This document shows positions 1,671 through 28,774 of a DNA stretch of 64,000 nt, in pieces (the first letter of the stretch is position 1; every line of letters begins with the position of its first letter). A program made the translations under genes and the position numbers. The notes beneath the pieces were generated by a model. It saw only the letters and a list, made by a program, of their open reading frames with translations, did no database searches and had not been told where the DNA came from. This stretch comes from Sulfurovum sp. (GTDB taxonomy: Bacteria > Campylobacterota > Campylobacteria > Campylobacterales > Sulfurovaceae), in the NCBI GenBank assembly GCA_011391015.1, contig JAABRH010000003.1:1-64000 (forward strand). Direction: 5' to 3'.

Positions 1671-3281
1671 ATGGAAAAACTAGTGTTACTGATACCATTT
1701 CTACCTATTGTGATAGCTACCATGATAGGCTTTTTAAACAAAAAAGAGCATATGCCCAAAGTGGCTATCTTTTTTTCCTCCATGGTTGCACTTTTGGCGC
1801 TGTATGGTACCTATTATGTGATGAGTACCGATCAAGACATTGATGGTTTCGGCGGCTATCTTATCTACAATGAACTCTCTGCCATACTTGTACCTTATGT
1901 TGCTATATTGGGGCTAGTCATACGCAAATACTCTACCAAATATATGTGGGATGAACCGGGATACAAACGATTTTTTGTCCTCTTAAACTTTATCTTCTCT
2001 GCCATTTATCTGCTTGTGATGAGTAACAATCTGATCATCCTGACCATCGCATGGCAATTGATGAGTATCAGTCTGTATCTGCTTATCTCATTTAACGTTG
2101 AATCCAAATCTGCCATCAAAAACGGGGGCTGGACGATGCTTGTACACAAGCTTGCAGACCTCTTCTTTATTATCGCTGTGATTCTTACCTACAAAACATT
2201 TGGCAGTTTTGAGTTGAGCGAGCTGAGTCAAAAATGGTTGACACTCTTCCAAAGCGGGCCTGTTGATGATGCCATGATTTACCTCATCGGTTTTCTCTTC
2301 CTGTTTGCTGCGATGATGAAATCAGCCATCATGCCCTTTCACCTTTGGCTGCCCTATACTTCAGAAGCACCCACACCCGTCTCAGCACTCATGCACGCTG
2401 GGGTAGTAAATGTTGGCGGGATTCTTTTGAACAAAATGGCATTTTTGCTTCTTTTAACCCCGGCTGTACTCAATGTAGCCTTTGTCATGGGTTTAATCAC
2501 CGCTGTTTTTGCTTCCATCCTGATGCTTGCCGTATCAGATATCAAACGTTCACTGGGCTATTCAACAGTGGGTCAAATGGGATACATGATCATGGAAGTG
2601 GGTCTAGGTGCCTTCAGTCTTGCTATCTATCATCTTATGGTACACGGTATCTTTAAAGCCTCTTTATTTTTGGAGTCCGGAAGCCTTATCAACCAAGCAA
2701 GAAAAGAGCCCAATGTACCAAGAAGGCTTTCACACGAAATCTTTTGGGAAGAAAAACCGCAGTACAACAGCATCAATATGTTCCGTATGATCGCCTTTTT
2801 TGCGGTATTTCCTGTCATTGTATTTACAGGCGTGAAGTTTTTACTCGGAGAAGACCTGTTCCATTTTAATGCAGCAACACTGATTATTGCCTTTGCCTGG
2901 CTCACTGGGACACAACTCTTTTTATCCTTTTTTGAGGTCTCCAAAGCCAATTCACCTAAAGTGATTCTTGCCCTGATAAGCTCTTTCATACTGGTACTGT
3001 TTACCTACGAATTTGTGGGTCTGGCGCTGGAGCATTTCCTCTATGGCGAAAATGGGGCATTGTTTTATGAAGTGGCTACCCTGCATGTATCAGGTACCAT
3101 GACGATATTGATGCTCATAGCCATCATGCTGGTCGGTTGGTATTTCACCTATAGACAACATTTTGTCGGTGTGCCGCTAGGTGAACACAAACCCAATAAA
3201 TCAAAATGGCGTATCTATAAGATGCTGGCAAAAGAAGGCTACATCTCAGATTGGTATGTCAAATATTTTAAAATTTTCTAA
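1671..3281 (+). CDS. dabB: NuoL/MrpA-like proton-conducting membrane subunit, DabB-type
   Basis: Multi-TM antiporter-like protein with AAMMKSAIMPFHLWLPYTSEAPTPVSALMHAGVVNVGGILL motif; located two genes upstream of DabA. Confidence 0.88.
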   Translation: MEKLVLLIPFLPIVIATMIGFLNKKEHMPKVAIFFSSMVALLALYGTYYVMSTDQDIDGFGGYLIYNELSAILVPYVAILGLVIRKYSTKYMWDEPGYKRFFVLLNFIFSAIYLLVMSNNLIILTIAWQLMSISLYLLISFNVESKSAIKNGGWTMLVHKLADLFFIIAVILTYKTFGSFELSELSQKWLTLFQSGPVDDAMIYLIGFLFLFAAMMKSAIMPFHLWLPYTSEAPTPVSALMHAGVVNVGGILLNKMAFLLLLTPAVLNVAFVMGLITAVFASILMLAVSDIKRSLGYSTVGQMGYMIMEVGLGAFSLAIYHLMVHGIFKASLFLESGSLINQARKEPNVPRRLSHEIFWEEKPQYNSINMFRMIAFFAVFPVIVFTGVKFLLGEDLFHFNAATLIIAFAWLTGTQLFLSFFEVSKANSPKVILALISSFILVLFTYEFVGLALEHFLYGENGALFYEVATLHVSGTMTILMLIAIMLVGWYFTYRQHFVGVPLGEHKPNKSKWRIYKMLAKEGYISDWYVKYFKIF

Positions 3282-3293
3282 AGGGGAGAATGG

Positions 3294-4028
3294 ATGCTTA
3301 TAGATTTTATACTATTATTTTTATTTGCGGGAGTACCCTATTATCTCGTTTTTGAAAACATACCCGTCATGAGAAAAGACAAAATTTTTCCTCTTGCCGC
3401 TCTGCTTGTCATTGCCGGTATGTTTATCTCTTACCAATTTCCGCAAGAGACATCCATGCCTTTTGTTATGGTTGCCTTCTTTGCTTCTTTGTTTTCGCTT
3501 CACAAGGCAAACCAGACAAACAATCTGTGTAAACTGACCTATTATATCCTGTTCTTTAACGCGCCTTTACTTATCATGTTCAAGACAAAAGAGAGTATCT
3601 TGTACGGTGTATCCCTTATTGTAGCACTCATGGGTGTTTATCTGATGGGCAAATATTATGCACGAAGTTATGGCAGCCCGAACTATCAGTCAGTCAGCGG
3701 TATTACCTTGGTGACTCCTTATGCCGGGCTCATTTTAACCGTCTACTTTACTGCATTGGCCCTCTATCCGCCGTTTCCCAATGCCTTGCTCTTTCTTAAC
3801 GGTATTTTGAAGTCAGAAATCAGCATCCTGTGGTATCTGATTGTCATCGTTATCTTTTTTGGAAATTTTCTGATTGCAGTGAGAGTCATGGCAAAAACCG
3901 TATTTGGCAAACCCAATGATAATGTGCATTACATTGATATATCACCAACGGAAAGAGTAGTACATCTGCTGATCATTGCAGTGTTATTGCTTCTAAGCGT
4001 TATAGGACTACAGGAGGTACTTTCATGA
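3294..4028 (+). CDS. multi-TM membrane protein between dabB and dabA (possible degenerate antiporter-like subunit)
   Basis: 244 aa, very hydrophobic, overlaps the dabA start by 4 bp (4025-4028), so probably translationally coupled. Confidence 0.8.
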   Translation: MLIDFILLFLFAGVPYYLVFENIPVMRKDKIFPLAALLVIAGMFISYQFPQETSMPFVMVAFFASLFSLHKANQTNNLCKLTYYILFFNAPLLIMFKTKESILYGVSLIVALMGVYLMGKYYARSYGSPNYQSVSGITLVTPYAGLILTVYFTALALYPPFPNALLFLNGILKSEISILWYLIVIVIFFGNFLIAVRVMAKTVFGKPNDNVHYIDISPTERVVHLLIIAVLLLLSVIGLQEVLS

Positions 4029-6898
4029 GTATACTTGAAAAATTAAATGCAATTAAAGATACAGTGCCACACTATTGGCCAATTGGTGCTTTTATCCACC
4101 ACAATCCGCTCAAAGGGTTTGAACACCTCAATTTTAAAGAAGCGCTCATTAAAGCACAACAGACTTTCGGCGGCAAAGTTTATATGGATCCGGACTATTA
4201 TATCGGGCTCTTTAAAGAGGGTAAAATCAGCTCTGAAATGTTAGAAAAAAACCTACTTAGGGTACTCAAAGAAGCAAAACTTGAACGCTATTTAGAGCAG
4301 GCTAAGACCTTTATGCTTGAAGTAAGCCCGCTATGGAACAGCTATAGAAGCTATGAAGACTTAAAGATAAACGAGATAGATGAAACCCTGCATAGCTATC
4401 TTGAAGAAAACGCTATTTACAAAGATGAAGAAGCATGGATTGCTTCACTCACCAAAAATATGACACTCTACGAGATTCATGATGCATTGTTTGGTACCAG
4501 TAAAAAAGAGCTCATAGAAAAAGATGTCATAGAATTTGTCGCACGTTTTCTTGATCAGCAGCAAACCACGCTGAGTATGACCGACAGAGATTTGGGTATG
4601 TTTGAAACCTTTAAACTGTATGAAAATATCGACTATATCATTGATGTAGAAGAATTTGTGCAAGAAGCACTCGATACGCTCAAAGTACAAGATGTGCAGA
4701 CCTACTTCCTCACACACATCCTCAAACTGCACGGATGGGCGGGCTATATTAAATACCGATCTGAATCCAAAGAGTATTATGCCCAGCAGGAACATCCTTC
4801 AACACTGATGGACTATATTGCGATCCGCTTACACTTTGAAGTCAAATATTTACGCAAAAAAAAGATCAATGATTTTGAAAAACTGCAAGCCTATATCAAA
4901 AGCAATACTCCTTACGCCATACTCAAACTCTTACAGGCAAAAGGCAAACTGACCGGTACCTACAACGATGCCATGGAAGAGCATCAAGACTATCAAGAGA
5001 TTGTAGATGCCTATGCCAAAGATGAGATCAATCTCAATTCTCTTCAGGTTCAGCTTGCACAAAAAGCCGTGCAACTGGACGATATGATGCCTGTAGCCTT
5101 TTCCAATTTTGCCAATTTGCTTAAAAAAGAAGAAGGATTTATGTGGCTAAAGTCTTTGGAAGACTCTTATATCGCAACCCATGTCGATGCATTTACTTCA
5201 CCGCATACCTACGACAAAAAACCGCTTTCCTCAACCATATTTTGTCTGGATGTTAGATCCGAAGTGATACGACGCAAAGTAGAAGAATCAGGTCCATACA
5301 CTACCTATGGTGCGGGCGGTTTTTTGGGGATTCCCATCTTGTTTGTCGAGTTTGACAAAGCCCATGCACTCTCACTGGCACCTGCAGTGATCAAACCTGA
5401 GAATATTGTTTTTGAAATACCCGTCGAATCACATGAAACATATAATTCCCAAAAAAGTGTAACCAAAACGACTAAAAAGGTATTAAGTGATCTTAAAAAC
5501 AATCCTTATACTCCCTACGTGATGGTGGAAGCAATCGGATGGCTTTTTGGCTTCAAACTTTTTGGCAAAACTTTCTTTCCTAAAAAAACGCATATGATTT
5601 TCAGTAAGTCAAAACCCGTCAAACCGAAAACCACTTACACACTAGACAAGCTCTCAGAAGAAGAGATAGAGAAGTATGTCAAAAGACTTCATACCAATAT
5701 CATCAATGAAGTCTTAACAACGCAATTTGGTACAGGACTCAACAGTTCAGACATCATCCTGCTTTGGGAACATCTGGTGTTTGACAAACCACTCAAGATA
5801 AGAATCTCATCTGATATCATAGACAATCTCAAACAAGCCTATCATATCACCAGTGAGGACTATGAGATCCAAAAAGTCAATCTCGCCAAAGTAGGCTTTA
5901 CTATTGAAGAACAGGTGATGTATATCGAAAATCTTCTCAAGATGATTGGGCTTATCGATGCGTTTCCGAAATTTGTTATTATCTCCGGGCACGGAAGCTG
6001 CTCAGACAATAACCCGTTTGAATCAGCCCTTGACTGCGGTGCCTGTGGGGGCAGTATTTCGCTTCCCAATGCACGTGCACTGAGCATGATAGCCAACAAA
6101 GCTGAAATACGCGAAAAACTCATATACAGGGGAATATCCATACCAGAAGATACACGTTTTATCCCGGCTTTGCATATCACCACTACTGATGAGATGACAT
6201 TTTACGATACGGAGATACTAAACACCAAAGAGTTAGAACTCTTTTTGGGTATGCAAGAAGACTTTAAAAATGCATCACTCGCTTCAAGAGAAGAAAGAGC
6301 CAAAGTTCTGCCCAATGCAAAAAATGAGAAAGATTTGTTTATTAAGACGATGGATTGGTCTGAGCCTAGACCAGAATGGGGACTAGCGGGCAATATGGGC
6401 GTATTTGCAGGACCAAGAGACTCTTGCAGACATATGGCTCTGCACAATAGACTCTTTCTTCACTCCTATGATGCCACAATCGATAACGAAAATGCCGACA
6501 TACTCACCCGTATCTTCAACGGACCTTTGGTTGTAGGTCAATGGATCAATCTTGAGCATTATTTCTCGACCGTTGACAATAAAGTCTACGGAGCAGGATC
6601 AAAAGTCTATCACAATGTTGTCTCTAAAATCGGTGTTTATAATGGAAACTACAGTGATTTAAAGATCGGTCTTCCAACCCAAAGTGTCATAGAAGAAGGG
6701 AAAGCCTATCATGAGCCTGTTCGTCTGCTTACCTATATGGAAGCACCGCTTGAGACGGTTGCCAAAGCCGTGGAAAATTCGGTGGCAAAAGAGTTTATCC
6801 TCAACGAATGGATACGACCTGTCATCATAGACAAAGCAGCCAAAAAAGTCTATTCTTACGAGTTTGGAGAATTTATTGTCATCAAAGAACTTGTTTAG
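4025..6898 (+). CDS. dabA: DabA-like DUF2309 (UPF0753) protein, inorganic carbon transporter subunit
   Basis: 957 aa. Contains FCLDVRSEVIRRKVE and GHGSCSDNNPFESALDCGACGG, matching the zinc-site motifs of the DabA family. Confidence 0.92.
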   Translation: MSILEKLNAIKDTVPHYWPIGAFIHHNPLKGFEHLNFKEALIKAQQTFGGKVYMDPDYYIGLFKEGKISSEMLEKNLLRVLKEAKLERYLEQAKTFMLEVSPLWNSYRSYEDLKINEIDETLHSYLEENAIYKDEEAWIASLTKNMTLYEIHDALFGTSKKELIEKDVIEFVARFLDQQQTTLSMTDRDLGMFETFKLYENIDYIIDVEEFVQEALDTLKVQDVQTYFLTHILKLHGWAGYIKYRSESKEYYAQQEHPSTLMDYIAIRLHFEVKYLRKKKINDFEKLQAYIKSNTPYAILKLLQAKGKLTGTYNDAMEEHQDYQEIVDAYAKDEINLNSLQVQLAQKAVQLDDMMPVAFSNFANLLKKEEGFMWLKSLEDSYIATHVDAFTSPHTYDKKPLSSTIFCLDVRSEVIRRKVEESGPYTTYGAGGFLGIPILFVEFDKAHALSLAPAVIKPENIVFEIPVESHETYNSQKSVTKTTKKVLSDLKNNPYTPYVMVEAIGWLFGFKLFGKTFFPKKTHMIFSKSKPVKPKTTYTLDKLSEEEIEKYVKRLHTNIINEVLTTQFGTGLNSSDIILLWEHLVFDKPLKIRISSDIIDNLKQAYHITSEDYEIQKVNLAKVGFTIEEQVMYIENLLKMIGLIDAFPKFVIISGHGSCSDNNPFESALDCGACGGSISLPNARALSMIANKAEIREKLIYRGISIPEDTRFIPALHITTTDEMTFYDTEILNTKELELFLGMQEDFKNASLASREERAKVLPNAKNEKDLFIKTMDWSEPRPEWGLAGNMGVFAGPRDSCRHMALHNRLFLHSYDATIDNENADILTRIFNGPLVVGQWINLEHYFSTVDNKVYGAGSKVYHNVVSKIGVYNGNYSDLKIGLPTQSVIEEGKAYHEPVRLLTYMEAPLETVAKAVENSVAKEFILNEWIRPVIIDKAAKKVYSYEFGEFIVIKELV

Positions 6899-6962: not shown

Positions 6963-7190
6963 ATGTACAAAATTCACATTGAGAACGAATGCAGTTGTTT
7001 TAAAAAAAGCACATTTGAAAATGACATGACGTTCAAAAATAAACCTGATGCGCTGATGCAAGCCAAAATTATGGAGTGTCGGATGAATCAGGAGTTCTGC
7101 CATACTCACTATTTTGAGGCAGAAGATATAGGGGAAGATATTATTATAAGAAGTATTGTTCGCCCCATAGATGATGAGGATGAAGACTAA
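6963..7190 (+). CDS. small Cys-containing protein (75 aa), paralogue of 7285-7527 and 28529-28774, without the GGCCGGGHC tail
   Basis: MYKIHIENECSCFKKSTFEN..TFKNKPDALMQAKIMECRMNQEFCHTHYF shares CxCF, DA, MN..FC.xH positions with the other two; acidic C-terminus. Confidence 0.85.
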   Translation: MYKIHIENECSCFKKSTFENDMTFKNKPDALMQAKIMECRMNQEFCHTHYFEAEDIGEDIIIRSIVRPIDDEDED

Positions 7191-7284
7191 ATCAAGCAGA
7201 AAAATTCTGCGTTTTTATCTTTAATCTTTATTTAAGCTCTTGATGCTATTATCGCTCATTAATTTATTTATAAAAGGATACTAT

Positions 7285-7527
7285 ATGTTCACAGTACAAG
7301 TTGAAAGAGAGTGCGGATGTTTCCGTAGAAGCGAAATCGAAAAAGAGAAAACGTTTCAAAACAGAGAAGATGCTATCTCTTACTCAAGAGCGATAGCAGA
7401 AATCATGAATGAAGACTTCTGTAAAAAACATCATTTTACAGCCAAAGCAAGTGCAGGAAATGAATTTGTGATTGGCGTAGCTGAAGGCTCAGGTGGCGGA
7501 TGTTGCGGTGGTGGACACTGCGGCTAA
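7285..7527 (+). CDS. small Cys-rich protein with GGGCCGGGHCG tail (80 aa)
   Basis: MFTVQVERECGCFRRSEIEKEKTFQNREDAISYSRAIAEIMNEDFCKKHHF...GSGGGCCGGGHCG. ATG at 7285 is preceded by aaaagga; the ORF-track start at 7240 adds a non-conserved leader. Confidence 0.88.
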   Translation: MFTVQVERECGCFRRSEIEKEKTFQNREDAISYSRAIAEIMNEDFCKKHHFTAKASAGNEFVIGVAEGSGGGCCGGGHCG

Positions 7528-7533
7528 AAAATG

Positions 7534-7565
7534 GTATACCCGATACAAGTATGTATTGGGTATAC
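7534..7565. terminator. bidirectional terminator-like hairpin
   Basis: GTATACCC-g-ATAC...GTAT-t-GGGTATAC between convergent genes. Confidence 0.7.
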
Positions 7566-7577
7566 ATACTCCTCAGT

Positions 7578-8549
7578 CTAGCTTTTTAATGAGAATCTAG
7601 GTAAAGAGAGAATCTCAAACTTTTCACACAGCTCTTCAACATCTGCTTCAATATTTTCACCGATTAAAATAAGCAACGATTTCCCCTCATAAACATCAAG
7701 CTCCTCAAATGTCACATCGCCAAATGCATAATTCACAACGATAGCCTGAGGTACATCTTTCACTTTGACTACACCCTTAACCCGATAAATAGACACGGGG
7801 ATATTTTGTAATACTGCATCCACGTCAGCAAAAGAACAATCATTTTTCAGGTAGACAACTTTTTGACCCAGAGAGTCTTTTGCCGTGTGGTCATGGTGAC
7901 TGAAGTCTTCTGCAAATTTCAGCACTTCATCAAGCCTGTAAACGCCCTCAAAAACCTCTTTATTGACCAGTCCATGCTCTGCCCTATGTATAACATACTG
8001 ATTGAAAATTGGCTTGCCTGTCATCGTATTTTTAATGTTATATTGCGCTTTAATTTCCCTAATCTCACTCTCAACCTCTAGAACCTCAGTGTCGTTGACA
8101 AGATCCGTTTTATTGAGAACTAATATATTTGCACCACCAAGTTGATACTTCGCCGTAGAATTTTCTTTATAGGAAGAAAAATTTTTTGCATCTACCACAC
8201 AGATAACGCCTTCAACAGTGACACCGAGATTTTGCAAAGACATATAAATCGGAAAAGGCTCAGATGCTCCGGAAGTTTCCACAAAAATAAGTTCAGGATT
8301 GTAATTGGCGATAATCTCTGTAACTCCTTTTTCAAACTCTTCAGATAATTGGCAACAAATACACCCCTCTGATATCTCAAGTACCTCACTATAGACATTC
8401 GTAAGAATTTTACTATCTATACCAATATCACCAAACTCATTGACGATCACTGCAATTTTTTTATCCGGAAAATAGTGTTGTACACTGTTTGTAAGCATTG
8501 TCGTTTTACCAACACCCAAAAAACCTGTTATAACAAAAGAAGAAATCAT
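7578..8549 (-). CDS. CobW/G3E family GTPase (putative metallochaperone)
   Basis: GFLGVGKTT Walker A; GCICCQL CxCC motif; NKTD G4 motif. Confidence 0.92.
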   Translation of the reverse strand: MISSFVITGFLGVGKTTMLTNSVQHYFPDKKIAVIVNEFGDIGIDSKILTNVYSEVLEISEGCICCQLSEEFEKGVTEIIANYNPELIFVETSGASEPFPIYMSLQNLGVTVEGVICVVDAKNFSSYKENSTAKYQLGGANILVLNKTDLVNDTEVLEVESEIREIKAQYNIKNTMTGKPIFNQYVIHRAEHGLVNKEVFEGVYRLDEVLKFAEDFSHHDHTAKDSLGQKVVYLKNDCSFADVDAVLQNIPVSIYRVKGVVKVKDVPQAIVVNYAFGDVTFEELDVYEGKSLLILIGENIEADVEELCEKFEILSLPRFSLKS

Positions 8550-8652: not shown

Positions 8653-9354
8653 TTATTGAGCTACAGGATCAAGAAGTGGAGCCAATCCAACTTCTTTTGC
8701 CCAATCTGCAGTTAAATCATAGGCTGCTGATGCAGTATCTAGGTTACTCTGAATTAAATCAAGTTTCTTTTTAAACTTTTTTTCGATAACAGAGTCAAGT
8801 GATGCAGTACCACCTGAAGCAACATATTTTTTAAGGAATCTGTCTTTAATTCCTTCTTCGATCGCTGACTTACCGACTGTTCCCAATGCACCAAATAATG
8901 CACCCAACATTGCCATGTTTGTAGCAAGTTCAGTTCCTGCAATTTCGACGGCAAATTTCGTAAAGTCTCTTGTAAGAACCTTAACATTTTTTGATTCCAA
9001 GAATTTTCTGTCAGAATCTGTTACAAGCTCATGATCACTGTTAATAAGAACCAAACCATTCTCTTTTATACCAGAGTAAAAAGGCATCGTATAGGATTTA
9101 CCCATCGTGATAACCTGTGGATGATACACCATAATGATATCAGGGTAAATAACCTCGCCTCTGTCATAAATAGGCACTGTTCCTATTCTTGTATAACTTT
9201 CAGAAGGTGCCATTCTTTTTTCAGCACCAAAAAATGGATTTGAAACAGCATAGTACCCTTCTGTATCAGCAGCAGTAGCCGCAATATGTGCAGCAGTAAC
9301 TGCACCCTGCCCCCCAAGGGCAGGCATTCTGATTTTAATTGAATCTTTTGACAT
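8653..9354 (-). CDS. 2-oxoacid:ferredoxin oxidoreductase gamma subunit (copy 2)
   Basis: RMPALGGQGAVTAAHIAATAA... typical gamma-domain start; close paralogue of 12433-13137. Confidence 0.92.
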   Translation of the reverse strand: MSKDSIKIRMPALGGQGAVTAAHIAATAADTEGYYAVSNPFFGAEKRMAPSESYTRIGTVPIYDRGEVIYPDIIMVYHPQVITMGKSYTMPFYSGIKENGLVLINSDHELVTDSDRKFLESKNVKVLTRDFTKFAVEIAGTELATNMAMLGALFGALGTVGKSAIEEGIKDRFLKKYVASGGTASLDSVIEKKFKKKLDLIQSNLDTASAAYDLTADWAKEVGLAPLLDPVAQ

Positions 9355-10214
9355 TAAAGAATTCCCTCCTTCTTACAGTTTTTCAAGTACTCTTCAGCTT
9401 CTGGAGAAACATATTTGAATGAAACAAATCTGTCTTTATCTTGCTCTTTCATCTCCCATAGACCTTCATTGGCATCCAAACCAATTTCAAGAATACATGG
9501 TGTATAGAGGTGGATATAGCTAGGTCCCATTTCTCTTGCAATTAAAATTGCTTCTCTTACAACTTTTGCAACTGATTTTGGTGCAGAAGCTGTCAATTTA
9601 ACAGAATACTGACAACCTGAAGTAACAGCCAATTCCCACATAGGTACTTTATCAAATACCTTACCTTTAGGAGCCATTTTAAACACTTGACCTTTAGGCG
9701 TAGAACCACTCTCTTGACCACCTGTGTTCGCATACACTTCGTTGTCAAAACAAATCGTAGTGATTTTTTCTTGTCTGAAGAATGACTGCAAAGTATAGTC
9801 AAGACCGATATCGATAGTCGCACCGTCACCAGCTAGAACAACGACATCTTTTGTTTTATCTGGGAATCTCCAGTCTAATACTCTTTTGATACCAGAAGCG
9901 ACAGCATTTTGGTTACCAAACAATGAGTGCACAGTGTGCAAAGCAATGTGTGGGAACATCAAAGAGGTACAACCAGTAGAGTTAACAATAACAGTCTCAG
10001 ACGGTGTTGGCAATGACGCCAAAATATATCTCAAAGCCGCAGCTTCAGGACATCCTGCACACAAAGAGTGTTCTTCAAGAATCTCTTTTTTATCTGTTAG
10101 GTCATTAATACCGCGTTTTTCGCCATACCAAGTTGCATTATCCTCAAGATCAAGGATCTCTTTAGGCATGATATCTCTGAACTCTGGGTTAATTTTGTAA
10201 ATATCTACTGACAT
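9354..10214 (-). CDS. 2-oxoacid:ferredoxin oxidoreductase beta subunit, TPP-binding (copy 2)
   Basis: EHSLCAGCPEAAALR; VVVLAGDGATIDIGLDYTLQ; DNEVYANTGGQESGSTPKG (TPP motif). Confidence 0.94.
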   Translation of the reverse strand: MSVDIYKINPEFRDIMPKEILDLEDNATWYGEKRGINDLTDKKEILEEHSLCAGCPEAAALRYILASLPTPSETVIVNSTGCTSLMFPHIALHTVHSLFGNQNAVASGIKRVLDWRFPDKTKDVVVLAGDGATIDIGLDYTLQSFFRQEKITTICFDNEVYANTGGQESGSTPKGQVFKMAPKGKVFDKVPMWELAVTSGCQYSVKLTASAPKSVAKVVREAILIAREMGPSYIHLYTPCILEIGLDANEGLWEMKEQDKDRFVSFKYVSPEAEEYLKNCKKEGIL

Positions 10215-10215
10215 A

Positions 10216-11409
10216 TTATGCCCCTTTCTTTACATTTTCTAAAACTTCTTTAAGGATAGCCTCAACTGGCATACTCATACCACCAGCAACTCTAGGTCTA
10301 CCAATAATTTTCGCTTCAGATTTACCATAAAGTGATTGCGTCACTTCTTTATCTAGCCAGCCAACAATGTTAAACTCTGGTACAAAAATATATTTTGCAC
10401 TTTTTGTTGCTTCAAGCAATTCAGCATGTGGGAATGGTCTAATCGTTCTGAGTTTAACCACTTTTGACTTGATACCCATTTTAGTCAATTCTCTATTAGC
10501 TTCTTTTGCCTGGTGAGACGCTGTTCCACACGCAACAAATACGATTTCAGCATCTTGGTCACCCGTTACGTGTGCCAAACCTTTTAAGAAATGTTTTGCA
10601 TAAGGAATAGATCTATCTACAGCAGATCGTACTTCCCACTGCCAACTAGCATGGGTTGCATAAGAGATATAGTTTGATTTCATAACGAATGGATCTCTTA
10701 AAAATCTTCCTGGAGGCATCTCTGAATCAATTGGAGGCAGTGGCGCTTTATAAGGATTGTACGGGAACAATGCGATATCATCAGCAGGAAGCATAACTGA
10801 TTCTCTAGTATGAGATACAAAGAATCCATCAACCGCGGTAATAATCGGCACGTGTACATCCGGCATTTCTGCTACAGTAAATGCTGCAATACTCATATCA
10901 AAAAGTTCTTGAACGTTTTCAGCATACCAAATCATACAACCTGTCTCTAAAAGAAAAGATACTTCAAGGTTATCCGGTTGAATTGTTAGTGGTGAGTTAA
11001 TACCTCTAGCCATCAAAACAAGCTGACATGGGATTCTTGTACCTGACCACATTGGGAAGTTTTCCATCGCTCTAAGTGTACCAGGTCCAGAAGTAGTCGT
11101 AACTGTTCTAGCACCAGCCATTGCACATCCTGCAACTTCAGACATAACACCGAATTCGTTTTCACCTCTAAAGTATGTACCTACATATCCTTCTGCCCAC
11201 AATTCACCAATAAGGTGAGCTGCTTCAGATTGTGGCGTAATAGGATACGATACAGATGCATCTACTGTACATCTTTTCATTGCCTCTTTGAGCACTTCTG
11301 AACCTGTCATAAAGTGTTTTTCTCTTGGTGCTTCAAAAAGTAAATAGTCAGTTGAAACCAAAGTTTGACCTGACCAGTTTTTTTCTTTTGTCATATTTTT
11401 TATACTCAT
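10216..11409 (-). CDS. 2-oxoacid:ferredoxin oxidoreductase alpha subunit (copy 2)
   Basis: SYPITPQSEAAHLIGELW...GARTVTTTSGPGTLRAMENFPMWSG. Confidence 0.94.
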   Translation of the reverse strand: MSIKNMTKEKNWSGQTLVSTDYLLFEAPREKHFMTGSEVLKEAMKRCTVDASVSYPITPQSEAAHLIGELWAEGYVGTYFRGENEFGVMSEVAGCAMAGARTVTTTSGPGTLRAMENFPMWSGTRIPCQLVLMARGINSPLTIQPDNLEVSFLLETGCMIWYAENVQELFDMSIAAFTVAEMPDVHVPIITAVDGFFVSHTRESVMLPADDIALFPYNPYKAPLPPIDSEMPPGRFLRDPFVMKSNYISYATHASWQWEVRSAVDRSIPYAKHFLKGLAHVTGDQDAEIVFVACGTASHQAKEANRELTKMGIKSKVVKLRTIRPFPHAELLEATKSAKYIFVPEFNIVGWLDKEVTQSLYGKSEAKIIGRPRVAGGMSMPVEAILKEVLENVKKGA

Positions 11410-11424
11410 AGTAACCTCCTAGCC

Positions 11425-11994
11425 CTATTTTCCAAGCTCTTGCTTGACTTCTCTGGCAACTTGAATAAATCTTGCCAAATCTTCTGAGTGCTGATCTCTA
11501 ATTGTTGCCATAGCATCCTCATGTCCTGAAAGTGCACACATTGCAGAGGTATAACAATCTGTTTCAGCTCTAACAATTTTTAATGCAACGTTTGCATAAT
11601 GGCAGTGAACACCGATAAAGATACATGCTTTAATGTTGTTATGCCAAATCGTCAAGTTTGGATGGTTGGGGTTGATTTCAACCTCAGCATCAATCTTAGG
11701 ATATTTTGGTCTATAATCATACATCGGTATCATTTTAGCATTCAAAACTTCTGCCATTTCTTTAATCAGCGTTGCTTTTTTCTTTGCTTCTTCATTCCAT
11801 GCGTACAAAACTTGTGGTCCTGGAAAAATAGTCGCGTTTTCGCTTGTCAACATTACTCTAGCAATTTCTCTCATTGCCACTTCTTCATCAACGATATCAG
11901 TCAACAGCAATGCTTTGCCTTCTGGTGGCGTGAGTATGCCATCATACGTAGCAACTGGATATGGTGAATAGTCAGCTGGGCCTAAATTAGCCAT
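11425..11994 (-). CDS. PorE/ForE-like accessory subunit (annotated in many genomes as carbon monoxide dehydrogenase beta subunit family), copy 2, 189 aa
   Basis: Paralogue of 15210-15923 (IIPMYDYRPKYPKIDAEVEINPNHPNLTIWHN.IKA..FIGVHCHYAN); first gene before the alpha subunit. Confidence 0.8.
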   Translation of the reverse strand: MANLGPADYSPYPVATYDGILTPPEGKALLLTDIVDEEVAMREIARVMLTSENATIFPGPQVLYAWNEEAKKKATLIKEMAEVLNAKMIPMYDYRPKYPKIDAEVEINPNHPNLTIWHNNIKACIFIGVHCHYANVALKIVRAETDCYTSAMCALSGHEDAMATIRDQHSEDLARFIQVAREVKQELGK

Positions 11995-12173
11995 TAGTTT
12001 CTCCTTAGTTTTATCTTGTATAGTCTTACGCCGTATGTAGAGTGTTTACTTTTTGGATCTTTTATAGATATGGGAGTAAATCTTGTTTACAAGGCTTAAT
12101 ACCTTATCTTTTTGCCATAAACAAAAAGATGTCTAAATCGCTGTTGGAGGAATAGAATTCCCTCCTTCACGAT

Positions 12174-12419
12174 TTACGCTTCTTCTGTTGTAACCATTAC
12201 CATTTCAATACAATTTCTGTCAAGTAAGTCTGAACATACATATACACAAATTGCACACCCTTTACATCTGTCTTCATCTACCCAAGATGTACCATTTGCA
12301 TTTCCATGTTTTGGTTCTTTATCATACATCAAAGTGTTGGCCTCTGGACAGTAAAGTGTACACATGTTACATTTGTGTGTTGAACACATTTCTGAATTTA
12401 CTTTTGCTACGTAATACAT
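12174..12419 (-). CDS. 4Fe-4S ferredoxin-type delta subunit of 2-oxoacid:ferredoxin oxidoreductase
   Basis: CSTHKCNMCTLYCPE...DEDRCKGCAICVYVC: two cysteine clusters; the only delta gene in the double cluster. Confidence 0.9.
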   Translation of the reverse strand: MYYVAKVNSEMCSTHKCNMCTLYCPEANTLMYDKEPKHGNANGTSWVDEDRCKGCAICVYVCSDLLDRNCIEMVMVTTEEA

Positions 12420-12432
12420 TATTTTTCCTTTA

Positions 12433-13137
12433 TTATGCGTCTAGTTTGATGATAAGTTCATCTGTGTTTAAATCAATAGAGTCTGCCAATTTGAAAGTCT
12501 CATTAATAACCTCCATGTTCTTCTGAAGCAACTCTTCTTTCTTCTTGAACTTTTTCTCAATAGCAGAGTCAAGAGAAGCTGTACCACCTGAAGCAACAAA
12601 CGAATTACCCAAGAATCTTTCTCTTACGGCTTTTTCTATGTTCTCTTTACTTACAAGTTTTGTAATTCCAAGTACCATACCCATCATTGCCATGTTTGTT
12701 GCAAGTTCAGTACCTGCAATTTTAATTGCCAATTCTGTCGCATTAAATTGAACTACTTTTGCTCCAAGATCTTTCAATACTTTTGTATCATCCGGATCAA
12801 GAATATCAACATCGGTGTTAATAATAATCAAACTATTTTTTTTCAAACCTGTATAAAAAGGCATCGTATATGATTTACCATGTGTAACTACCTGAGGGTG
12901 GTAAATCATAATAATATCTGGATATACAACTTCACCCACTTCATAAATAGGCTGTGAAGATGCTCTTACATATGCCTCAACCGGAGCCATTCTTTTTTCA
13001 GAACCGAAAAATGGTACCAAAGAAGCAAATTTACCAGCATTATCCATCGCAGATCCAAGAATGTGAGCAGAGGTAACAACCCCTTGCCCGCCAAGCCCGG
13101 AAATGCGCATATTATATCTTTTTTTATCTACTGCCAT
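12433..13137 (-). CDS. 2-oxoacid:ferredoxin oxidoreductase gamma subunit (copy 1)
   Basis: RISGLGGQGVVTSAHILGSAMDNAG...; paralogue of 8653-9354. Confidence 0.92.
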   Translation of the reverse strand: MAVDKKRYNMRISGLGGQGVVTSAHILGSAMDNAGKFASLVPFFGSEKRMAPVEAYVRASSQPIYEVGEVVYPDIIMIYHPQVVTHGKSYTMPFYTGLKKNSLIIINTDVDILDPDDTKVLKDLGAKVVQFNATELAIKIAGTELATNMAMMGMVLGITKLVSKENIEKAVRERFLGNSFVASGGTASLDSAIEKKFKKKEELLQKNMEVINETFKLADSIDLNTDELIIKLDA

Positions 13138-13138
13138 A

Positions 13139-14014
13139 TTAGCTTACCTCTCTTTTGTTTTTAGATTCAATTTGAGCAAACAACTCTTTTGCTTCATCTG
13201 TCATATATTCTTCATAAGCAAAACGACCCTTTTCCATCTCTTTTGCATCTCTAAATACATCATTGGTAGGGATTGAGTACTCAATGTTACAAGATGTATA
13301 CACGTGAAGGAATGTTGGTCCAAGTGTTCTTGCTGCAAAAATTGCTCTTCTGATTGCTTTTGAAGCTTTATTGATATTGGTTGGTGACATTTTAACAACA
13401 TATACACATCCAGCTGTAATAGCTAGTTGCATTGCTGGCATTTTACCAAACTTTTTACCAGTTGGAGACATCTTAAGAATAGCACCTTCCATACTCATAC
13501 CACTCTCTTGACCACCTGTGTTACCATATACTTCGTTATCCAACATAATAGTAGTAAATCTTTCACGTCTAAACCAAGCATGCATCGTCATAGAGAAACC
13601 GATATCCATCATACCACCATCACCCGCGATAGTGATAACATCTTTATGTCTATCAGGGAATCTTAGTCTAAATGCACGTGTAATACCAGATGCCATAGCA
13701 TTTTGGTCTCCATAGTTACCATAAATAAAAGGTACCGCTGCTTGTGAAATCGCTAGTCTTCCACACCCTGCCGTACCGATAGTTACAGTATCTTCTGGGT
13801 TTGGAAGTGATGCAAAAATTATTTTAATATAATATGCCATCCAGCATCCAGAACACATTGGGTGTTCTTCAATCAATTCTTTGTAAGTACCCATATTTTT
13901 TACGCCTACATCATTGTAGTCTTTACCAAATGGACCGTAATCTACCAACTCGACATAGTCTTTTGGTAAATATTTCTTAAATTTTGACGCTGGAATCATA
14001 TATCTTAAACTCAT
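13139..14014 (-). CDS. 2-oxoacid:ferredoxin oxidoreductase beta subunit, TPP-binding (copy 1)
   Basis: EHPMCSGCWMAYYIK; VITIAGDGGMMDIGFSMTMHAWFRRE; DNEVYGNTGGQESGMS. Confidence 0.94.
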   Translation of the reverse strand: MSLRYMIPASKFKKYLPKDYVELVDYGPFGKDYNDVGVKNMGTYKELIEEHPMCSGCWMAYYIKIIFASLPNPEDTVTIGTAGCGRLAISQAAVPFIYGNYGDQNAMASGITRAFRLRFPDRHKDVITIAGDGGMMDIGFSMTMHAWFRRERFTTIMLDNEVYGNTGGQESGMSMEGAILKMSPTGKKFGKMPAMQLAITAGCVYVVKMSPTNINKASKAIRRAIFAARTLGPTFLHVYTSCNIEYSIPTNDVFRDAKEMEKGRFAYEEYMTDEAKELFAQIESKNKREVS

Positions 14015-14024
14015 TGTAACTCCC

Positions 14025-15194
14025 TTATGCTTGTAGTGTTTCGGATTTCATACCAAGAGCCATATAGACTTGCTCCATGATCAATTCCACAGGTAATGTC
14101 ATACCACCATATACTCTTGGACCATCCACTACAATACCACTGTTTGGAATAGCTGCTTTTACTTCTGTAGCCAACCAGCCAATAATATTATGTTCTGGAA
14201 TAATGACTTTTTTAGCATTTTTCAACGCTGCACGAATCTCTTCTTTAGGGAAAGGTCTAATCGCTCTTACTTTAATAAATCCGACACTCAACTCTTCTTC
14301 TTGTGCATATCTGTGTGCTTCTCTTGCTTGTGCCGCTGCACAGCCTGATGCAAGAACAAATACATCAGCATCTGGATTTTGGACTTCAATTGGTCCACCA
14401 AGATATTGATAGATATATTTCATTGCTCTTTTGTTTGAGTCCCAAATCTCTTGCTGCCATACTGAGTGAATCAAATAAGACATGAAGTTAGATTTTTGAA
14501 CCGGTGCATCTCTTTGAATTCTTGCTGGTGGCACTTCGTTGTCCATTGCTGGAACTGGCGCCGCATACGGATCTGGCTCGTTGAATGCCAACTCTTCAGA
14601 AGTCATATCAACATAACCCTTCGCATGTGTTACAAAGAATCCTTCAGTTGCAACCGCTACGGGGATATACACATCTACTTTTTCAGTAATGGCAAATGCT
14701 GCCAAAGTCATATCAAATGTATCTTGCTGATTTTCTGCATGCAAGAGAACAACACCACTATGAAGAAGGTATGCCATCTCAATATTATCTGGTTGAATTG
14801 AAAGTGGTGCGTTAACAACTCTTGTAAGAACACCCAATACACATGGTACTCTGTGTCCTGGCCAAGAAACAATTGCCTCAAGTCCTCTTAACAGTCCCGG
14901 TCCTGATGTTGCCGTGAACAGACGTACACCTGCTCTTGCAGCACCTGCAATCGCCGACATTGTACCAAGCTCTTCTTCAGCTCTGTAGTACTCTTTGATG
15001 TGTCCTTGTGCATAAATATCACCAACAAGGTGCATTACTTCAGACTGTGGTGTAATAGGATAGGCAATAGCCATATCAACACTTGCTCTTTTAACAGCTT
15101 CAGCCATTGCCTGAGCACCAGTAATAAAATGCTTTTCTCTTGGAGCCTCTTTTAAAAGGTATTCCATACTTACTAATGTTTTATTTAAACTCAT
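14025..15194 (-). CDS. 2-oxoacid:ferredoxin oxidoreductase alpha subunit (copy 1)
   Basis: AYPITPQSEVMHLVGDIY...GVRLFTATSGPGLLRGLEAIVSWPGHRVPCV. Confidence 0.94.
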   Translation of the reverse strand: MSLNKTLVSMEYLLKEAPREKHFITGAQAMAEAVKRASVDMAIAYPITPQSEVMHLVGDIYAQGHIKEYYRAEEELGTMSAIAGAARAGVRLFTATSGPGLLRGLEAIVSWPGHRVPCVLGVLTRVVNAPLSIQPDNIEMAYLLHSGVVLLHAENQQDTFDMTLAAFAITEKVDVYIPVAVATEGFFVTHAKGYVDMTSEELAFNEPDPYAAPVPAMDNEVPPARIQRDAPVQKSNFMSYLIHSVWQQEIWDSNKRAMKYIYQYLGGPIEVQNPDADVFVLASGCAAAQAREAHRYAQEEELSVGFIKVRAIRPFPKEEIRAALKNAKKVIIPEHNIIGWLATEVKAAIPNSGIVVDGPRVYGGMTLPVELIMEQVYMALGMKSETLQA

Positions 15195-15209
15195 TTATCT
15201 CTCCTTATC

Positions 15210-25956: not shown

Positions 25957-26301
25957 TTAAAGTGTGACATTTTGTATAAACTCCACTTCATCATGCCGGA
26001 TAATCAGCGCATCAATACTGAATGCCATATCAAGTTTTTTGCTTTTCATGTAGTAGTGTGAAGAGTTGATGACTTTTCGTAGTTTGGCAGGTGTAAGATT
26101 GTAAATCGGGTCAAAATCGGTTTTACCACTTTTAACCTCGATAAAATGCAACACATCCTCCCGCAAAGCGATGATATCTATCTCACCCAGTTTACGCGCA
26201 AAGTAATTGCGCTCCAGTATGACAAAACCCTCCTGTTCCAAAAAACGTGTCGCAAGCGTTTCACTCTTATCTCCGTATTGCTTGGGGAGTTCGCGTGGCA
26301 T
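25957..26301 (-). CDS. YraN/UPF0102 family endonuclease-like protein
   Basis: ATRFLEQEGFVILERNYFARKLGEIDIIALREDVLHFIEVKSG (nuclease-fold motif). ATG overlaps the FDH stop codon (TAATG). Confidence 0.85.
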   Translation of the reverse strand: MPRELPKQYGDKSETLATRFLEQEGFVILERNYFARKLGEIDIIALREDVLHFIEVKSGKTDFDPIYNLTPAKLRKVINSSHYYMKSKKLDMAFSIDALIIRHDEVEFIQNVTL

Positions 26302-28418
26302 TATCCGCACGCCACCTCATCGCTTACAGGGAGTATGTCCACTTTGACAGATTTAAACCGTGCGGTTAAAATGAGCTCATCACACTCATCACCAAAAAGC
26401 GCATTGAGTTTGGAAGCTGCATGGTGGAAAGTGCAGAAGAGTGTGCGTGATTTGACTTTACTTGTATATTTCACACTCAGTGCTTCACTCTCTCCGTACT
26501 GACTTCGCAAAATAACCTTATCACCCAGTTTGCCTTCATCTTCAAGCGGGGCTAGAAGCAGATCTTCATCATACTTGTCCCACAATGCACCCGTCTGTTT
26601 GGTTTGCGCTGCGTTATTGTAGTGTGCCAGTGTCCGCCCTGTTGTAAGATAATACCCCTCATAAGAATCTTTATAGAAATTTTTATCGAGTATCTCCTGT
26701 ACCATGCCGCGCGGTTCATACTGCTTGTAGACATATTTACCCAAACCATCTTCTGTACGGAAGTCAAGCAGATGCAAAACAGGTGTGTCTTCATGGTAAA
26801 TAGGCCACTGCATCCCTCTTTTTCTATGGCGAGCCAGTCTGTAATAATCCGCGCCTGAAAATCTTCTAGGTGCCACGGTTCTTACTTCATTCCAAACATC
26901 TTCAGACGTTTTAAAATGAAAGTTTTCACCGTCACCCAGTTTTTCTGCCATTTGGGTCAATACTTCCCAATCATCTGGCAAATCACTGTGCACGAGAGGC
27001 TGAGAAAGATGCAGCCTTCTCATCGCATTCACATAGACACCTGTTTTTTCATACGCTGACTTCACCCCTATGATGATGTCGGCTTTTTTTGTCACGTCCG
27101 TCATGAAAAGCTCTTGCACCATCACAAACTCCAGTTGATCCATGGCTTTATCTATTTTGTTGATATTGGGATGAATGTGTGTAATGTCCTCTCCCATATT
27201 GAGCAATGCCTTTATACGTCCGTCCAACATGGCATCCATCAGCTGCGGTGTCATAAGACCTTCCACTTTTGGCAACTGGTAATCAGGCGCAAAGTACGGT
27301 AAACAACCCATATCACAAGCGCCCTGAACATTGTTCTGTCCTCGAAGCGGCATTAGACCTGCACCTGTCTTGCCTACATTGCCCGTCATCAATGCCATGT
27401 GTGTGATCGCCATCACCGCGTGTGAGCCGTCAAGATTTTGCGTGATGCCAAGACCCCAAAAGATCATCGATTTCTTCACTGCATATTCTCTGGCAATGTT
27501 AGGTATCATTTTTGCCAGATATTCATACCCCTCAATGTTATGAAAATACTCCGGATTGGCATAAGGGTCGCTCAGAATCTTTGCTTTAAAATCATCAAAA
27601 CCTTTGGTGCGATTGTCAATAAAACTTTGGCTGTACAGCTCTTCATCGATAATCACATACGCCATCATATTGAGCACAAGCAGATTGGACTCAAAAGGTA
27701 TCACACAATTGTATTTGGCAAGTTTTGCCATCTTTGTCTCACGCACATCAATCACAGCTAAATTGTTGTGCGTTCTTGCCTGCGCTACCATACGGTTTGA
27801 GATGATAGGATGCGCCTCCATTGTGTTAGAACCGATCACCACCATAAACTCTGTTTCATAAATGTCATTATACGGATTAGTCGCAGCACCCTCACCCATG
27901 GTTGCTCTCATACCCTTTAGCGAAGGTGAGTGACACACTCTTGCACAGTTATCCACATGCGGAGAGTCCATCGTTTCACGGCAAAATTTCTGAAATGCAT
28001 ACGCAGACTCACAGGAAGTTCTTGCCCCGCCTATGGCACAAAAACTGTCACCGCCGTACTTTTTTTTGATTTCATCAAGTTTCATGGTTGCCATACTTGT
28101 GGCAGTATCTAGGTCACAGGTGAGAAACTCTGCATTAAATTCTGAAAGTTTATCTGCAAATGCTTCTTTTATTTGGGGATTTTTTTCTAAAAATGTTTTA
28201 CGAATACGCGGTTCTCGAATACGCTCTTTGGAGTCCACAAAGTCATACCCGTATTTACCCTTTATACATAAATTGCCTTCTGAGACCAAACCGTCTTTTT
28301 GTGCATATATCTTGACAATCTTGTTATTTTCTACTACCCCGGTAATGTCACAACCCACACCGCAATAAGTACATACACTTTCTATCTCTTTTGTTTCAGT
28401 ATCAATTTTTTTTGTCAT
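26301..28418 (-). CDS. molybdopterin oxidoreductase, formate dehydrogenase-like catalytic subunit (Cys form)
   Basis: CTYCGVGCDITGVVENNKIVKIYAQKDGLVSEGNLCIKG Fe-S motif; DNCARVCHSPSLKGMRATMGEGAATN active-site region; GVYVNAMRRLHLSQPLV. Confidence 0.85.
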   Translation of the reverse strand: MTKKIDTETKEIESVCTYCGVGCDITGVVENNKIVKIYAQKDGLVSEGNLCIKGKYGYDFVDSKERIREPRIRKTFLEKNPQIKEAFADKLSEFNAEFLTCDLDTATSMATMKLDEIKKKYGGDSFCAIGGARTSCESAYAFQKFCRETMDSPHVDNCARVCHSPSLKGMRATMGEGAATNPYNDIYETEFMVVIGSNTMEAHPIISNRMVAQARTHNNLAVIDVRETKMAKLAKYNCVIPFESNLLVLNMMAYVIIDEELYSQSFIDNRTKGFDDFKAKILSDPYANPEYFHNIEGYEYLAKMIPNIAREYAVKKSMIFWGLGITQNLDGSHAVMAITHMALMTGNVGKTGAGLMPLRGQNNVQGACDMGCLPYFAPDYQLPKVEGLMTPQLMDAMLDGRIKALLNMGEDITHIHPNINKIDKAMDQLEFVMVQELFMTDVTKKADIIIGVKSAYEKTGVYVNAMRRLHLSQPLVHSDLPDDWEVLTQMAEKLGDGENFHFKTSEDVWNEVRTVAPRRFSGADYYRLARHRKRGMQWPIYHEDTPVLHLLDFRTEDGLGKYVYKQYEPRGMVQEILDKNFYKDSYEGYYLTTGRTLAHYNNAAQTKQTGALWDKYDEDLLLAPLEDEGKLGDKVILRSQYGESEALSVKYTSKVKSRTLFCTFHHAASKLNALFGDECDELILTARFKSVKVDILPVSDEVACG

Positions 28419-28528: not shown

Positions 28529-28774
28529 ATGTCAACAATTAATATCGTTCAAGAATGTGGATGCTTCAAAAGAAGTGACCTAGAAAACAACACCTCTTTC
28601 GAGAGCAAAGATGATGCGATGATGAAGGCACAAGAGATGCTTAATCATATGAACAATAAATTTTGTGGGAAACATGGTTTTGAACTTAGTGAGAACGGTC
28701 ATGACTTCAGTATCGCTATGAAAGCACCACAAGCTGCATCTGGCGGCTGCTGTGGCGGCGGTCACTGTAGCTAA
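28529..28774 (+). CDS. small Cys-rich protein with GGCCGGGHCS tail (81 aa)
   Basis: MSTINIVQECGCFKRSDLENNTSFESKDDAMMKAQEMLNHMNNKFCGKHGFEL...ASGGCCGGGHCS; paralogue of 7285-7527. Divergent from the FDH gene. Confidence 0.88.
   Translation: MSTINIVQECGCFKRSDLENNTSFESKDDAMMKAQEMLNHMNNKFCGKHGFELSENGHDFSIAMKAPQAASGGCCGGGHCS

Follow-up and report, generated by a model that had tools for sequence, protein, structure and literature searches.

An undescribed family of small Cys/His proteins in Sulfurovum, with one branch tied to DAB1-type CO2 uptake loci

DAB systems are an important non-cyanobacterial route of inorganic carbon accumulation and are of interest for the engineering of CO2 uptake. DAB1 was described as a three-subunit system, consisting of DabA1, Hneap_0908 and DabB1 in Halothiobacillus neapolitanus, and the solved DAB2 is a two-subunit complex with one zinc per DabA, held by Cys351, His524 and Cys539 of DabA2 (PMC13144422). 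In those parts of this source that were accessible to us, DAB2 is described without any additional small protein of the kind reported here, and no small Cys/His protein is mentioned for the DAB1 of H. neapolitanus (PMC13144422), whereas the loci studied here have one or two of them after dabA. COG0523 proteins, the CobW-type metallochaperones among the G3E GTPases, were linked to zinc homeostasis (PMC2770081).

In the present study a stretch of 64,000 nucleotides of a Sulfurovum sp. contig (JAABRH010000003.1, positions 1 to 64,000; hereafter the window) was analyzed, the plus strand of which carries dabB (1671..3281; NuoL/Mrp-like membrane subunit, PF00361, E 1.4e-44), a gene for a 244 aa membrane protein (3294..4028) and dabA (4025..6898; beta-carbonic-anhydrase-like subunit, PF10070, E 5.8e-207). 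The 244 aa protein gave nothing beyond a weak hydrogenase-4-subunit-F-like match and is regarded as the third DAB1-type subunit by its position between dabB and dabA and by its length. The zinc site ascribed to DabA in an earlier, sequence-only reading of this DNA was confirmed: the C/D/R and H/C residues are in place, the motifs FCxDVRSE, GHGS and LDCGAC align to DabA2 (9rd0), and the zinc ligands of the solved protein are conserved. With a PF10070 DabA bearing the beta-carbonic-anhydrase ligands C, D, H and C, a NuoL-like DabB and a third small membrane gene, the system is of the DAB1 type and shares both its make-up and the DabA zinc-site residues with that of H. neapolitanus (compared with the accessible parts of PMC13144422). 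Upstream of dabB, a 175 aa ORF (845-1372), which had no match in Pfam or NCBIfam, resembles by eye small truncated-globin-like ORFs near dab at two other loci (L071, L076).

Three further ORFs of the plus strand, which had been noticed as tiny Cys-rich paralogues, are present: the alpha copy (6963..7190, 75 aa), which starts 64 bp past dabA and combines the core domain C-x-C/C-x-x-H with an acidic tail, the beta copy (7285..7527, 80 aa), in which an alpha-type core is followed by a GGCCGGGHC tail, and a third copy outside the DAB unit (28529..28774, 81 aa) with a CCGGGHC tail. Paralogy of the three holds, as 18 invariant columns are common to them and the alignment gives 34-41% identity to the first copy; the proposed family size of three has to be raised, since a fourth member on contig C79 brings the genome to at least four. 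Likewise, the shared ending, formerly written GGxCCGGGHC(G/S), reads literally GGCCGGGHC(G/S), and the form GGxCC matches the second copy only. A purine-rich, ribosome-binding-like stretch precedes the ATG of each ORF. Differences of the window copies from their relatives fall mostly on third codon positions (4/2/33 at positions 1/2/3 between alpha and its relative in G026), and dN of beta against relatives is well below dS (0.016 vs 0.52). This third-position bias and the low dN mark the window copies as selected proteins rather than chance ORFs, and the three ORFs are thus real genes under purifying selection.

The family was supposed to be undescribed, which agrees with our searches: neither the three window copies nor 13 further diverse members had a match over cut-off in Pfam and NCBIfam, none of the solved structures is related to it by sequence, and no paper on it was found in the published literature. 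A match of one member to NRPS_MxcG (E 1e-4) was dismissed as chance, the model being that of an unrelated large enzyme. Members are present in 67 of 78 Sulfurovum genomes and in 66 of 299 genomes of a sample of the phylum. A scan of 85,462 species gave 257 relatives; the 80 listed of these belong by title to Campylobacterota groups, apart from one labelled merely 'bacterium', and among these listed matches the family was found in Campylobacterota only. Spread by phage or plasmid was rejected, as a phage collection gave no family match and a plasmid collection a single one, a Sulfurovum record with the usual yraN/yajQ context. Altogether, the family is a real, undescribed and apparently lineage-restricted group of cytosolic domains of about 70 aa.

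Within 187 distinct members, which were picked by a profile and hence in a way that favours conserved columns, the core residues are retained almost without exception: each Cys of C-x-C in 187 members, the Cys of C-x-x-H in 186 and its His in 187; together with one Phe they are the only columns conserved at that level. Conservation of the Cys/His residues, on which the sequence-only reading had made its proposal of a metal or redox role depend, is therefore found, but in the core: the compact cluster of the tail, which had been taken for the key feature, is the variable part. Tails may be CCGGGHC, CCGGGCSSH, long and Cys-rich, acidic, or absent, and because many members do without it, the CCGGGHC tail is not a defining metal cluster. 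C-x-C and C-x-x-H provide four conserved potential ligands, as is characteristic of zinc-binding domains, and their invariance fits a single metal site, so that the three Cys and one His of the core probably hold a metal ion.

AlphaFold models of the 28529 copy and of alpha (mean pLDDT 80.6 and 83.7, tails of low confidence) have an identical core of strand, short helix, short strand, long helix and two strands. The first strand is followed by C-x-C, beside which the short helix begins, and the long helix finishes near C-x-x-H, which leads into the third strand. Provided that the first and third strands run antiparallel to each other, an arrangement known from beta-grasp folds, this topology reasoning would place all four core residues at one end of the sheet. 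No significant fold match was returned by Foldseek (best E 0.37 and 0.51, TM about 0.4-0.5). There is a weak likeness in the order of secondary structures to Protein L B1 and other small beta-grasp domains, for which the Foldseek match is non-significant; protein L has, to our knowledge, no metal site, and the resemblance is likely a coincidence of topology. FmdB-type zinc ribbons are an example of small proteins with Gly-Cys-His tails, and the family likewise possesses a flexible Gly/Cys-rich tail; its core differs, however, in having neither a C-x-x-C ribbon nor a Pfam match, and the likeness serves as a lead only. It could also be assumed that C-x-C/C-x-x-H is a redox switch or a labile metal or cluster site, by which sulfide or oxygen is signalled to DAB, POR and nitrogenase. 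Such a thiol or sulfide sensor would be in keeping with Cys-rich tails of changing pattern and with the redox-sensitive metalloenzymes that recur as neighbours (nifDK, POR), but the invariant His and the retention of all four residues suit metal binding better, and with neither a thioredoxin-like C-x-x-C nor a fold match we consider it very unlikely.

DabA was detected by profile in 21 of 78 Sulfurovum genomes, to which G508 is added, a genome whose contig covers no more of DabA than the last 40 residues; in G031 dabA (L044 2109-4983) is broken into several frames, by assembly error or decay. There are 23 DAB1-type loci that include the 3' end of dabA, 21 of Sulfurovum and one each of two other families (G411, G310), and in all 23 a member of the small-protein family is the next gene on the same strand, 2-73 bp on. 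The association with dabA that had been suspected is thereby obligate in the sample: without exception, one branch of the family accompanies DAB1 at the loci studied, and alpha has been retained where DabA identity is as low as 59% and where the locus was rearranged locally. In the tree, the copies linked to dabA make up a single clade (support 96/100), the internal branching of which is weak because few columns were available. One might argue that a duplicated housekeeping gene was captured by chance in one dab cassette and then inherited with it, since the single clade, the clustering of dab+ Sulfurovum genomes and the frequent occurrence of the family in unrelated contexts would all be expected from such a hitchhiker; its persistence in 23 of 23 loci of three families, at DabA identities as low as those given and despite rearrangement, together with the purifying selection on the copies, renders this highly improbable. 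Such a constant place of the small-protein gene after dabA within one lineage implies that a DAB component has gone unrecognised.

A beta-like copy comes next after alpha in 16 dab loci. In G411, the alpha copy has both the acidic stretch and a GGCCGGGKC tail, which indicates that tails were lost or gained inside the dabA-linked clade. A subgroup of alpha copies (L246 8693-9010 and similar) carries a conserved C-terminal extension, VTIGFD, after the acidic stretch, possibly a binding peptide; in Sulfurovum this subgroup accompanies the divergent POR arrangement (see below) wherever that is visible.

A second DAB type occurs in the order (DabA of about 1011-1093 aa), and no family copy was found beside it; directly after its dabA, a gene of ~103 aa, PII-like by eye, is located in several loci (L110-L115). 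This bears on the possibility that alpha is a structural or regulatory subunit, which would bind DabA/DabB to stabilise or gate them, would hold a metal of merely structural importance and would take the slot of the PII-like gene. The obligate place behind dabA, the filling of the same slot by a PII-like gene in the other type, the acidic tail or VTIGFD extension as a suggested binding peptide, and the dispensable Cys cluster of the tail all favour such a subunit, although it leaves the Cys/His tail of beta and the linked CobW unexplained. We regard it as a serious, if tentative, possibility, a purely structural or regulatory role being nearly as likely as that of a zinc accessory factor.

The CobW in question is a G3E (COG0523) GTPase encoded convergently to dab on the minus strand (7578..8549; PF02492, E 5.3e-46). 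It has the nucleotide-binding and C-terminal domains (PF02492 and PF07683) as well as the C-x-C-C (GCICC) of the COG0523/CobW metallochaperones, and is under the curated cut-off of all named NCBIfam subtypes (CobW, ZigA, PRK11537). It differs from described members in closing a POR operon rather than belonging to a Zur or cobalamin cluster: upstream of it on the same strand lies the POR1 operon (8653..12419) in the order porD, that is a ferredoxin-like subunit (12174-12419), a 189 aa subunit (11425-11994), porA (10216-11409), porB (9354-10214), porG (8653-9354; PF01558) and cobW. To treat cobW as a simple dab gene was therefore rejected. In the window, as in 12 further loci (G411 among them), cobW is convergent to dab, while in G003, G505, G012, G526 and G027 the POR/cobW operon is divergent and upstream of dabB. 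Orthologues of CobW are present in 20 of 22 dab+ vs one of 56 dab- Sulfurovum genomes (the dab contigs of the two exceptions, G005 and G518, stop nearby), and porA of POR1 in 21 of 22 vs none of 56. The naive Fisher values of ~1e-15 (CobW) and ~1e-18 (porA) ignore kinship; as the dab+ genomes cluster together in the tree of the housekeeping copy, these contrasts are confounded by phylogeny and do not amount to 78 independent observations. It is a firmer point that the linkage of CobW to dab has outlasted a rearrangement and is seen again in a further family. Of the association with CobW that had been proposed, the link to the DAB/POR region thus stands in two arrangements, and structurally the gene belongs to the POR operon. 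A second POR operon (12433-15206) adjoins the first (8653-12419) in the window; relatives of the POR1 and POR2 porA (>=81% and ~45% to window POR1, respectively) were seen in dab+ Sulfurovum genomes only, and dab- genomes have only ~30% porA relatives. In G525 cobW (L250 6422-7396) is broken into several frames, by assembly error or decay.

The reading we favour, at a probability of roughly 45%, is that alpha, and usually also beta, are dedicated, putative zinc-binding accessory factors of DAB1-type CO2 uptake, which aid metal loading or assembly. It builds on the invariant core, the position in 23 of 23 loci, the single clade, the lack of family copies beside the second DAB type, the joint presence of acidic stretch and GGCCGGGKC in alpha of G411, the intact zinc ligands of DabA, the confidently predicted core and the linked CobW, which, given the tie of COG0523 GTPases to zinc homeostasis, fits a zinc role without proving it. 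From these observations we infer both zinc as the metal and the function of the small proteins: C-x-C and C-x-x-H would bind one metal ion, most likely zinc; alpha would be made together with DabA and might help it to obtain or keep its catalytic zinc, or to assemble; the flexible Cys/His tail of beta could act as a metal-catching arm; and CobW may power the same zinc supply. Against the accessory role, alpha of the window has no Cys tail, which more than any other feature would point to metal transfer, and the solved two-subunit DAB2 is described with no protein of this kind (PMC13144422). How DabA gets its buried zinc and how it is switched on are questions on which alpha may bear.

Most of the family is found without dab, and with copies in housekeeping contexts, metal delivery to DabA is not a family-wide role. 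The 28529 copy, the orthologues of which lie genus-wide between yraN/fdhA and yajQ, stands divergent from an FdhA-like molybdopterin oxidoreductase gene (26301..28418, minus strand; TIGR01591, E 1.3e-153, below the curated cut-off), which is a neighbour only. This divergent arrangement with fdhA recurs in 22 Sulfurovum loci; in at least five loci of a first set and more of a second, the copy occupies the yraN/yajQ gap without fdhA, and a copy is likewise situated in this gap in Sulfurovum mangrovi. An obligate service to the formate dehydrogenase, which the sequence-only reading had considered, was consequently rejected and the link is merely positional, as the copy keeps its place where fdhA is absent; it is a general housekeeping member of the whole genus. 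In Arcobacter-like and Sulfurimonas-like genomes, copies lie among unrelated genes, a good many of which have housekeeping roles.

Another branch of the family comes after nifHDK, no more than about 3 kb away from nifD (G029, G110, G223, G238, G331, G370, G386, G460, G488); in most other nifD-bearing families no copy was found near nifD. That the family as a whole consists of lineage-specific zinc- or metal-loading adaptors, each paralogue being tuned to one metalloenzyme operon (DAB1, nitrogenase, others) and DAB1 requiring a module of alpha, beta and CobW, seems unlikely to us. With the nif-linked copies included, an unannotated Campylobacterota gene family of testable chemistry is defined. 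Copies beside nitrogenase genes were seen at L225, L227, L230, L091 and L242, and at some nif loci a conserved, unannotated gene of ~62 aa lies between nifK and the family copy. In some Sulfurimonas-like genomes (L190, L196), the copy adjoins genes that are, by eye, arsenate-reductase-like.
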